This document shows, piece by piece, positions 3,000 to 26,248 of a stretch of DNA of 64,000 nucleotides. The translations under genes and the position numbers were made by a program. Origin of the DNA: Serendipita indica DSM 11827 (lineage: Eukaryota; Basidiomycota; Agaricomycetes; Sebacinales; Serendipitaceae); assembly GCA_910890315.1 (NCBI GenBank), contig CAJVGD010000001.1:1364001-1428000 (forward strand). The letters are read 5' to 3'. The first letter of the stretch is position 1, and the number at the start of each line of letters is the position of its first letter. The notes under the pieces were generated by a model, which had not been told where the DNA came from, ran no database searches, and saw only the letters and a list, made by a program, of their open reading frames with translations.

Positions 3000-4052
3000 A
3001 TGCCTTCCGCGCCGCTGCTTGTCCCAGGTGAAAAGTCACGAGATGTCTCAACTGCAAGTGTGACTCTTGACGCAAAGGAGGCTGTCGACATTGCCCAGGG
3101 ACTCGAGGAGAATGTATTTCTATTCGTCCCTAATCTTATAGGTGTGTTGCTCTCCAACTGAAGTCTCAGACGCTTACGATAACCCGTACATAGGGTATAC
3201 GCGTATCATTCTCGCTGCCGTTGCACTCAACTATATGCCGTACAATCCCTCGTTTGCAACAGTCTTATATGGTCTAAGTTGCCTTCTGGATGCCGTAGAT
3301 GGACATGCAGCGCGTCTCTTGCACCAGACATCGCGGTTTGGGGCCGTGTTGGACATGATTACAGACAGGTTAGTCACGCTTGGTGCCGTGAGCGCTCGGC
3401 ATTCGCCGCGCTTGTCGAAACTGATCATTCAACTCTTATCGCATGCAGATGTACCACCTCGGGTCTACTTTGCTATCTTTCCTCTGCATATCCGTCATAT
3501 GCTCTCGCGTTCCAGGCCCTCATTGCGCTCGACTTTAGTTCACACTATGTTCATATGTATAGGTGCGATCAGTCACCCAAGAGTGCGATGGAACTGACAA
3601 CTCTCAGTACTCTATTAACTGGTTCAAAGAGCCACAAGGTTATAGAGACCGACGTTAGCCGCGTCCTTAGTTTCTACTATAACAACCCTATGAGCGAATC
3701 TTGGGATCGTACACCGCCGCTAACCTTTAGCAAGACGACGCTTTTCATCTTTTGCGCGTGCAATGAACTCTTCTTCTTTGCACTCTACCTCATGAAATGG
3801 GATAATACGCCTCTCAACCTGCCAATACTCCCTCCCTTTGGTCTTATCCCTGGCTTGGCGACTTGGGTTGCCAGCTTGACCTTTGCGAAAATCCTCGCCT
3901 TGATTACATTCCCCATCTGCTTTGGCAAGAACGTGATCAACGTTGTGCAGGGTTGGAAGGCGAGCAAGATTCTTGTGGGCGTCGATCTTGCGGAGCGTAC
4001 CAAGATGCGAGATAGAGAGCGCCAGGAGCGTGCTCAGAAGGAGGTCAAATGA
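3000..4052 (+). CDS. PIS1: phosphatidylinositol synthase (CDP-DAG--inositol 3-phosphatidyltransferase)
   Basis: Makes phosphatidylinositol from CDP-diacylglycerol and myo-inositol in the ER membrane. Four exons (3000-3141, 3194-3368, 3449-3562, 3608-4052) give 291 residues. The CDP-alcohol phosphatidyltransferase signature D-x2-DG-x2-AR-x8-G-x3-D-x3-D is complete: DAVDGHAARLL followed by SRFGAVLDMITD. Each intron join falls inside a conserved stretch (NLIG/YTR, ITDR/CTTS, HMY/STL), which confirms the splicing. Several hydrophobic segments surround the motif and continue to the C-terminus, which ends in a short basic-acidic cytosolic tail. The ATG at 3000 is the first that gives a plausible N-terminus; a non-ATG upstream extension was ignored. 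Divergent from RRP36. A second enzyme of the same superfamily, CHO1, lies about 8 kb to the right. Confidence 0.95.
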
Positions 4053-18570: not shown

Positions 18571-21500
18571 CTATGCTCTCTGTGGACTGAAGAACCAGCT
18601 CGCACGCTTGCCTGCAAGCCACCATCCCGTCAGCGACTCTTATTCAGCCCGGAGAAGAAGAGAAGGCTTACTCGTATTCCCATCTTCCTGTAGCCTCGCC
18701 AACGGGTTCGCCGATGCTCCGCTTCCGCTGTATCCGCTGCCAGAAGAAGGTGCTGGCGGCGGGCCTGTATTTGTCGCGTTTCCACCACCTCCGCCGCCTC
18801 GGAGCGGCTTGGCGATCCGTCCAAAGTTGAGAGACGATGCATTGGCCACCTTTTGCGCTGATCCACGCCGATCATCAGCCACCCGCGATAGGGAAAGTTG
18901 GGTACGTACATCGGGCTTGCTCCAGGCGATCTCGGACAGCCTGCAATTGAGCTTCGAATTTCTGATTCTGAGCCGCAAGTCGTCGATCGGCATCCTGCAG
19001 CAACGCCTCGAGATTTTGGATTCGCTCGTTCCGCGCAAGCAATTTGCGCTCTGCAATTCCAGCCTCCTTTTTTAGCGAGCTGTTCTGGTCGACGAGCTGC
19101 TTTTGCACCAGCGTCAGTTGCTCGAGATTGCGCTCGAGGAACATCATCTTCCTCTGCTGTGTCTTGCTGCTGCTGTTTCGGATCACATTGCCATATTGCT
19201 CCTTAATCTCGTCCAATTGGATTTCCAATTCAACCACCTTGTGAAGTGTGAGTAATAGTCGGCTCGGGGAGCCATTCACGCACTTTTTCGCACCGATTCT
19301 GAAGATCCCTCATCAGTGATTTCTTCACTCCATCAAACTCGGCTAGTTGAACCGCAATTGCTTTTCGTGTTCGCTCCAAGTCCTGTGCGCTCTCTGCTAG
19401 GTTCTTGCCACCCTCGATACCGGCCGACGTCACGGCAAACGCGCGCTAACAGAGCGGAGATTCAGGAATAGACATTCGAGCGACTAGTCAGACGGACCTT
19501 GAGCTCCTCATTGACACCCTTCAAATTGTCAATCGTCGCGTTGAGACTCCGGATCTCGTTCGCCTTGAGGTCAATCTGCTGTTTGAGATCCTGCACTTCC
19601 CCTGTATGGGCCTGTTGGCGAGCGACATATTGTGCCTCCAATTTCGCCTAGGCGACAGAGTTTCAGCCACTGAGCGACCTGGCTAATGCGATCAATACCT
19701 TGAGTTCTTGAATTGACTCGGCTTGTCCGTCAATATTAACGGCCTCATCATGAATTGTTTTCTCTGCCAACAATCAATATCACCCCACACGGGGACATGC
19801 CCCATCTCACCGAGTAATTCTTCGTATTCGACTTCGAGTGTCTGCAGTCGCTGCTCGAGTTCGTCTCTTCGCCGGCTCAGAAGCTCATTCTCCTCTTGGG
19901 TCTGAGCAAGGCGATCGAGAGTCTCACGCACAAACTGCTGCTGCTCTCCTACCTGCCTTCTGAGGACATTGAGATCATCCGGGGACAGATTGCCGGCTGT
20001 CTCCGAGTCTAGCTTCGCCAGGGTCGCGCGGAGCTGCTCTTCCTTCTCGGAGAAAGCACCCTGCTACGCGGAGATGAATGCATCCTTTGAGGAGAAGACT
20101 ATGCGGCTGACCGTGTCGAACTTTGCCATCATCATGGCCATCTTCTCAGCCTTCTTCTTCTCCTTGTCTTCCGCTGCGGCATCCTTCTGGTTGAGTCGAA
20201 GCTCAGCAATCGTCTTTCTGAGTTCTTCGAGGTCGTTGTTCAGATCAGCATTTTGCTCTTTAAGAATGTCCATCGCAATCACGCTCTCCTTGCTGTCATA
20301 GTCCAATCTCTCGAGTTGGAGACGAAGTTCGTTGAGTTGACTTGACATGGCCTTGTTCTCCAACGATGTCGATGCCTCTTGCTCTTTCAAGAACGCGAGT
20401 TCCTCTTTGAGATCCGCGACGAGCTTCTGCTGCATCTTCAATGCGCTTTCCTGTCATATAAATCAGTATAATGGCTCAGATTATGCGAGATCAGAAGCGT
20501 ACTCTCTCCGCAAGCAAGTCACTGAGTTCATTCTCTCGCCTCAAGAACTCATCCCTCTCGTCTTTGTCCAATCCAATAGCCGTTGGGGTCTGGGGTCGAG
20601 AGTCTAGGTCTGACCGAAGATCCGCAAGTGCTGGGTTGATAGGAGTCATCGAGCGACCCGGCGTCGAAGGAGTCGTCGATGTGGGCCTCTTGATGGGAGC
20701 ACCGCCAGCAGCAATCTTTTCCTGTGATGTCCATTCTGATTGAGGAACCTGTTTACCAGAACGCCAGACAGCGAGTTCCGCCTCGAGGGCTGCGATATAG
20801 AGTTGGTAGGATGCATTTGCCGCTTGTGACTTCTTGAGGAAATTCTTCAGCTCTGCGGGTGATAACTCGGCATTGACACGAGCCGAGTTCTTGATAGATT
20901 TGGCTCTAATACCAAAGCGTAGTGTACTGAGTGTCTCCGCTTCGTTGTAGCCGCATGGCGAACAATTGATGATCAAGGTTGTACGAGAGTTGCCACCCAG
21001 TGATTCTTGAAGAATACGAGTCAACTTGGAGTCTCGATAGGGAATGTGTGCAGACTATATAGATCGTGAGTATCGAATATAGAGATCAGTGAGTACTCAC
21101 TTTGCCATCCGTCAGAGCATTAATGACCATGCCAAGCGCGGATAGAGACTTGTTGATCTTCTTGGCCTCTTCGAGTGTTTGTCCAGTGGCACCGGTCTTT
21201 CCAACCTTCTCCGAACCAGCAAGATCGACGAGGTAAAGGTTGCCCGTCTTGACACCGCCGGTGTCTGTATTCTTCTGGTTGATGGTAATAAGGAAGATGG
21301 AATGTGATCTTGAACTTTCAGCATTCATGTCTGATGAGGAGTTTAACATAGTTGGTTGACATATCTTTCCGCTTACTTGTAGCTGTCACAACGCGAGCTG
21401 CGCCACCTTGTCGCATGATTTCGTAAACTTCTCTGGCGTTACTAACGTAGTAGTCTGAGAGTCCTTTGACGTAAACGCCTTTGGACTTCTCCTCGTGCAC

Positions 21501-22290
21501 CTGCAGGTTGTCGTTTTGTGCTGCAACGCATGGTCAGTCTGCGGGTAGGTTCCATGGAATGCACCTACGAGCCAACAGATCGCGAATGCGTTCAAGATAA
21601 ATTTCCATGTATGAAACTTTGACCAAATATTCCAGATTCGGATCCGACTCTGCAATTGAGGCGAAGATCTGTTCCGTTATCCGCGGAATGATGCCTTTGA
21701 GGTCCTCTGAATCAATATCGGCACCCTGAGAGCCGTTAATCCTAACTCTTTCACATGTCCAAGTAAGGGGACACACCATCATTGTGAAAGTTTTGCCGGA
21801 TCCCGTCTGTCCATACGCAAATACGGTTCTGCAGATATTTTAGGATACCTGTGTTAGGATTTAAATGATGATTACCCTGTATGCACGCGTTAGCATAAAC
21901 GATGGGGCGGGGTTACAAACATACCATTATAGCCATCGAGAACGTCTTATCAGAAGGGTGTAAGACTCTGAGAGCTCATGAAACAAATCAAGGATCACCT
22001 TTAACTATTCTAGAAGAAGCTAGCGTTAGCCAGACTTGTGGCCACTCCACGGCAGTGAGCAATACACACCCTTTGACGCCATAATCAAACACCTCGATCT
22101 GTTTTGTGCCCATAGGGAAGATTCTATCAAAAGTGAAACCATCCTTCTCTGGTCCCGTCGATAGTTGGGCCGATTTGAGTTGGACCGTCTTGAAGCTGTC
22201 GTCAAAAGAGACGACGATGTCGCCTCCTTCGCGCATCTCGATCGAGTTTGGCGGCCTGAACCGACATACGACCTTGATATTGTTGGACAT
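18571..22290 (-). CDS. kinesin-1 heavy chain (conventional kinesin)
   Basis: Plus-end-directed microtubule motor for vesicle and organelle transport in hyphae. [16 protein letters not shown] opens the motor domain. P-loop GQTGSGKT, switch [10 protein letters not shown], switch II DLAGSEK and the neck region [15 protein letters not shown] are all present. Long coiled coils follow, then the fungal tail [13 protein letters not shown]. The last exon, after an intron near 18620-18665, gives [13 protein letters not shown] and a stop at 18571-18573. The motor is broken into many exons. Around the P-loop, exons of 11 nt (21999-22009), 21 nt (21925-21945) and 1 nt (21876) are required to keep the conserved [21 protein letters not shown] reading (see separate entry). 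Divergent from PIK1, 185 bp between starts. Confidence 0.95.
21829..21924 (-). other. single-nucleotide microexon with its two flanking introns in the kinesin gene
   Basis: On the minus strand the exon ending TATAATG is followed by a 48-nt intron (21924 down to 21877: GTATGT donor, CTAAC branch site, CATACAG acceptor). Then comes one G at 21876 and a 47-nt intron (21875 down to 21829: GTAATC donor, CTAAC branch, CTGCAG acceptor). The next exon starts AACCGTATTT. Only inclusion of that one G keeps frame, giving GYNGTVFAYG, the invariant kinesin sequence before the P-loop. The Gly codon GGA takes its three bases from 21925, 21876 and 21828. A single 96-nt intron would shift the frame and lose the P-loop. 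Confidence 0.85.

Positions 22291-22475: not shown

Positions 22476-26248
<3,773 letters not shown>

Follow-up and report, generated by a model that had tools for sequence, protein, structure and literature searches.

A probable one-nucleotide coding exon ahead of the P-loop of a kinesin-1 heavy-chain gene

The window analysed here (i.e., the whole stretch of DNA, 64,000 nucleotides long, C1:1364001–1428000) carries on its minus strand a gene that was modelled by hand from an ATG at 22290 to a stop codon at 18571, with 16 GT-AG introns of 46–60 nt. The sequence-only reading had taken this gene for a kinesin heavy chain, which is borne out by the match of its motor to the conventional kinesin of Neurospora (1goj, E-value of 2.2e-162 via a PDB sequence search, ungapped around the site discussed below) and by a Pfam Kinesin match of 388.9 bits for the protein encoded by the structure that we prefer. 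The PDB search with the motor matched 158 distinct sequences, and our statements rest on the best 60 of these 158, in which rows 1–26 carry the names kinesin (heavy chain), kinesin-1 or KIF5, including two chimeras that contain claret segregational protein, and row 27 is KIF3B. Among the matches listed, the predicted motor is nearest to kinesin-1, and its P-loop (GQTGSGKT, residues 91–98 of the manual model) is intact. Moreover, a 10-residue stretch at the C-terminus of the translation, read by eye, resembles the IAK motif of kinesin-1. An NCBIfam scan of the full protein returned just two weak matches, far below their cut-offs. On the plus strand, a divergently transcribed neighbour lies at about 22600–25800, and a 15-residue stretch of it near 25600, also read by eye, is presumably as in phosphatidylinositol 4-kinases. 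The features of the kinesin gene that are needed here are as follows:

18571..22290, minus strand: kinesin-1 (conventional kinesin) heavy-chain gene, ATG to stop (manual model, 16 short introns, 969 codons)
21999..22009, minus strand: exon 2, an 11-nt microexon that completes Gly74 and codes for I-V-K and the first base of Asp78 (manual model)
21925..21945, minus strand: exon 3, 21 nt, with the rest of Asp78, V-L-D-G-Y-N and the first base of Gly85 (manual model and PDB alignment)
21877..21924, minus strand: intron 3, 48 nt, GTATGT...TGCTAAC...ATACAG, branch A at 21890 (manual model, signal scores)
21876, minus strand: predicted exon 4, the one nucleotide G, second base of the Gly85 codon GGA (enumeration and trained gene model)
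21829..21875, minus strand: intron 4, 47 nt, GTAATC...TCCTAAA...CTGCAG, branch A at 21840 or 21854 (manual model, signal scores)
21777..21828, minus strand: exon 5, with the last base of Gly85 followed by the conserved motif with the P-loop (manual model and PDB alignment)

Introns 1 to 4 enclose just 33 coding bases between the Gly74 and Gly85 codons, in exons of 11, 21 and 1 nt, and the IVKDVL of the exon 2/3 region also occurs in animal kinesin-1 sequences aligned among the PDB matches listed. The coordinates that had been proposed for exactly one G (21876) between introns of 48 and 47 nt proved exact (minus strand, 21924–21829). Joining AATG, G and AACC yields AAT GGA ACC (Asn-Gly-Thr), in which the three bases of the Gly85 codon (G|G|A in the manual model) come from three exons, as had also been claimed. 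Because DVLDGYN and TVFAYG fix both frames, the spliced length between exons 3 and 5 must be 1 modulo 3, and codon 85 reads GNA, which encodes Gly only if N is G. Both introns, this frame requirement and the motif can be read directly from the DNA, and we found no equally good alternative to them. The site thus has the AG-N-GT arrangement between two complete spliceosomal introns that characterises a nuclear single-nucleotide exon (with intron 4 being weak), and its single base is needed for both the frame and the conserved protein sequence.

The two introns differ in quality, with signal scores at the 99.2th (intron 3) and 17.4th (intron 4) percentile of 495 training introns of the gene model described below. 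The GTAATC donor of intron 4 lacks the G at +5 that is present in about 82% of training donors, and its CTAAC (branch A at 21854) lies far from the acceptor and is directly followed by CACAG. The branch site favoured by the gene model is instead TCCTAAA (branch A at 21840), 10 nt before the end of the intron. The claim that each intron has its own GT donor, CTAAC branch site and AG acceptor therefore holds as far as two complete introns are concerned, while the branch site of intron 4 is likelier CTAAA than CTAAC.

Splice structures across the site were enumerated with GT or GC donors, AG acceptors and either a single intron or two, none of them shorter than 20 nt. Together, the 46 single pairs and the two-intron combinations gave 31 structures free of a stop codon, five of which retain FAYGQT, and the exact motif is restored by the 48-nt and 47-nt introns around the single G alone, in agreement with the original frame argument. 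The other four comprise an 80-nt GC-AG intron that adds five residues, a GC-AG/GT-AG pair that loses three motif residues, a pair that includes a 24-nt intron and inserts extra residues, and a 92-nt GT-AG intron (21920–21829, donor GTTTGT) that adds one Ile and yields NGITVFAYG. The 92-nt intron is the sole other all-GT-AG structure enumerated that keeps the frame without an intron shorter than 30 nt, and its signal (22.4th percentile, length uncounted) is no worse than that of intron 4. A different splice pair that keeps the frame, which had been named beforehand as a potential refutation, does exist in this form, but several observations disfavour it. A stronger donor (GTATGT) lies 4 nt upstream of its own (6.46 vs. 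3.29), its length class is rare (7 of the 495 training introns measure 85–110 nt), and the Pfam Kinesin match falls from 388.9 to 382.5 bits. Furthermore, a search with 26 residues around the motif hit 155 distinct PDB sequences (many being constructs that derive from the same few kinesins), and query and chain spans were equal (by eye) in 60 of 60 among the matches listed, indicating no net insertion in the motif among them. The motif spacing is likewise kept in all seven other readable kinesin genes of the genome (model calls). Together with the path scores given below, this makes the 92-nt intron very unlikely.

As a genome yardstick, we built our own gene model, which follows codons exactly from exon to exon; its training set was the window together with a further 200 kb of its contig (264 kb). 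Training started from 14 kinesin introns (excluding introns 3 and 4), and later rounds used introns of called genes with flanking exons of at least 40 nt, so that introns 1 to 4 were excluded throughout those rounds. Strands were called separately, and some of the called genes may be spurious. The output comprised 83 genes of at least 200 aa, with 623 introns and 543 internal exons, and the training introns had a median length of 49 nt (23 of 63–84 nt, 7 of 85–110 nt and 37 above 110 nt; i.e., 44 of 495 reach 85 nt). In the kinesin gene, 15 introns were called, of which 14 are identical to the manual model. Intron 10 is 48 nt long in the trained model vs. 51 nt in the manual one, and since the trained model ends the gene at 18640, without the 16th intron, the C-terminus and that intron are uncertain.

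The trained model called the one-nucleotide exon unprompted, and did so again when the signal, length and codon tables were taken from outside the window alone (376 introns), a hold-out that is incomplete in that background, penalties and branch-site choice came from the joint run. Its full path through the two introns and the single G scores 9.7 nats above that with the 92-nt intron (146.8 vs. 137.1), and if the donor at 21875 is disallowed, 7.4 nats are lost and the resulting protein has no P-loop; the model has no exon-length term, so that a one-nucleotide exon is charged nothing extra in these figures, and a realistic prior would reclaim several nats. A pipeline that forbids one-nucleotide exons might choose the 92-nt intron, but our model, when so restricted, chose otherwise.

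Exon 4 of the kinesin gene is the only 1-nt exon among the 543 internal exons, which include one of 0 nt, none of 2 nt, one of 3 nt and 14 of at most 12 nt. The 3-nt exon (ATA, C1:1035660–1035662, plus strand), flanked by well-scoring introns of 54 and 47 nt, is a candidate called by the gene model. At position 3563 of the window, on the plus strand, the model called an intron of 194 nt directly abutting one of 45 nt, leaving a zero-length exon, perhaps in place of a single 239-nt intron beyond the model's 200-nt intron limit, or else at a ratchet-like site. Towards the 3′ end of the kinesin paralogue on C15, introns of 51 and 52 nt similarly abut with no exon in between (model call). Such zero-length calls are possibly artefacts of the intron limit or of abutted introns, and since the model made them both in the window and in a paralogue, very short exon calls can be artefacts as well. 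The predicted kinesin exon, in turn, is backed by protein homology independently of its gene-model call.

Skipping of the G would correspond to a single 96-nt intron and lead to a stop after 100 codons. As the true structure, a 96-nt intron would require an adjoining one-base assembly error or true deletion, and its combination with a base error had likewise been named beforehand as a potential refutation. Its junctions end in short G runs and its signals are good (73.7th percentile, length uncounted), but the rest of the frame is open, and none of the seven called introns of 85–110 nt contains an AG-N-GT split. The 96-nt intron would further need a chance split into two genome-typical introns. 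This was assessed by leaving the first 6 and the final 20 bases of the interval untouched and replacing the middle 70, with splits having to leave introns of at least 38 nt. Any AG-N-GT split arose in 694 of 20,000 dinucleotide shuffles and in 1,355 of 20,000 replacements by random genomic 70-mers, and a split scoring as high as the actual one arose in 0 of 20,000 in both cases. We therefore regard the 96-nt intron with a base error as improbable. Even less credit can be given to an intron of 95 nt that would have non-canonical ends (GT...CA or TA...AG): its mRNA would be indistinguishable from that with the one-nucleotide exon, because the exon base is G and CAG precedes exon 5, but its ends and length are unusual and it would leave two complete introns as a coincidence.

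The 401-bp stretch around the site matches only itself in the 24.7-Mb, 55-contig genome (E-value threshold of 0.001), by which a copy of the site elsewhere in the genome was rejected. Kinesin matches in the genome number 21, and group by position into at least eight genes including that in the window. According to the model calls, an intron at the NG|T codon occurs in none of the seven others. Three paralogues (C5:687k, C2:193k and C5:184k) have introns within YGxTGxGK and a fourth (C18) has one just after GKT, while that stretch is free of introns in those on C11, C15 and C19. In the C5 kinesin at about 183800–184300, a model-called 12-nt exon codes for most of the GQTG in the P-loop, which means that microexons in P-loop motifs occur beyond the window gene as well. 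An origin of the site by tandem duplication of a single intron was rejected, as introns 3 and 4 resemble each other no more than random pairs do (71.6% of 3,000 pairs sampled from 340 introns are as similar). No relative and no orthologue turned up in the contig collections scanned, which were prokaryotic and viral. A phosphate transporter fragment encoded by this genome aligns with PDB 7sp5 over 192 residues, 191 of them identical (the sole mismatch is the first residue, next to an exon edge). Since 7sp5 is PiPT of Serendipita (Piriformospora) indica, a basidiomycete that lives as a root endophyte, the DNA is likely from that fungus.

Taken together, the G at 21876 is best read as a constitutive one-nucleotide coding exon of the kinesin-1 heavy chain, abutted by two ordinary short GT-AG introns, a reading to which we assign a probability of roughly 0.87. 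We infer that the RNA is spliced as modelled, with each of the two short introns being recognised by intron definition. The available part of one report (PMC6616335), which deals with ascomycetes and fission yeast, holds that the splicing machinery recognises short introns of fungi across the intron. The single-base exon had been described as close to the physical limit of exon definition; we do not share this view, since the splice sites of short introns in fungi are understood to be paired by intron definition (PMC6616335, on ascomycetes), so that a 1-nt exon should pose no special obstacle. The intron 3 acceptor (ACAG|G) overlaps in bases with the U1-binding stretch of the intron 4 donor (AGG|GTAATC), making joint occupancy hardly possible, and introns 3 and 4 would therefore be removed one after the other, as Guo and Liu proposed for APC11 (PMC4674806, available part). 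The stronger intron 3 would most likely go first, and the donor would then become TGG|GTAATC, slightly weaker than AGG|GTAATC (1.9 vs. 2.7). The mRNA would then read AAT-GGA-ACC and the motor would retain its exact motif. It is most doubtful that this exon serves as a switch for dosage or fidelity, i.e., a regulated 1-nt exon in which 96-nt skipping or use of the CACAG (a 76-nt intron ending at 21849, 50.5th percentile, length uncounted) would give out-of-frame mRNA and splicing efficiency would set the motor level.

The consecutive removal of adjacent short introns by intron definition recalls the stwintrons of ascomycetes, in which a splicing element of the external intron is interrupted by an internal one (PMC6616335, available part). 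That definition fails on the kinesin sequence, where the GTAATC donor of intron 4 is unsplit and starts one base downstream of the AG of intron 3, and where the intervening base would remain in the mRNA between two intact introns. A stwintron is accordingly barely conceivable here.

The predicted exon is probably a new case of a known, very rare gene structure. Its closest counterpart is the single-nucleotide exon of Fusarium CYP621A (Nelson and Syed 2026, PMC12940212), as described in the available part of that report: a G in AGGGT, forming the middle base of a Gly codon. Both are fungal genes with an AG-G-GT core and a central Gly-codon base in a conserved motif. CYP621A, however, is an ascomycete P450 whose interval spans 139 nt in F. 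graminearum and which is documented by 20 orthologues and by SRA reads, whereas the kinesin is a presumed basidiomycete gene with a 96-nt interval, known here from genomic sequence. Arabidopsis APC11 (Guo and Liu 2015, PMC4674806) likewise has a constitutive 1-nt coding exon needed for the frame, but its base is A, its interval spans 422 nt, and it was proven by cDNA and reporter mutants. The 1-nt microexons of plant APC11 and VPS55 resemble the kinesin exon in being missing from annotations, but are conserved across land plants and supported by RNA-seq and RT-PCR (PMC8831610, available part, which also warns of many false detections among exons shorter than 3 nt). The Fusarium authors regard CYP621A as the second example, and as the first from a fungus (PMC12940212), and seem to leave VPS55 uncounted. 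One-base exons have also been described in mitochondria, namely in placozoan cox1 (PMC5436844), and the term recurs in an Ophiostoma mitogenome paper (PMC12308204, both in part). In the available text of Rhizoctonia and Cryptococcus genome papers, "microexon" appears once each, as an aligner setting. The open-licence literature searched yielded no single-nucleotide exon in a basidiomycete nuclear gene and none in a kinesin, and the present exon may be the first from the nuclear genes of a basidiomycete, as far as that literature shows.

The one-nucleotide exon predicts the spliced reading AATGGAACC, with ...AATGGAACCGTATTTGC as the diagnostic k-mer stretch across the spliced site, while AATGGTATAACC and AATGAACC would be contrary to it. 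Gene-finding software usually misses one-nucleotide exons, and the locus offers a clean test for annotation software, as shown by our own gene model losing the kinesin P-loop when such an exon is forbidden. If confirmed by RNA, a single-nucleotide exon would be added in a core motor gene. Finally, the Fusarium authors suggest, as the favoured route to single-nucleotide exons, a G lying between AG and GT (PMC12940212, available part), and, if the present reading is true, two fungal cases with an AG-G-GT core in a Gly codon would fit that suggestion.
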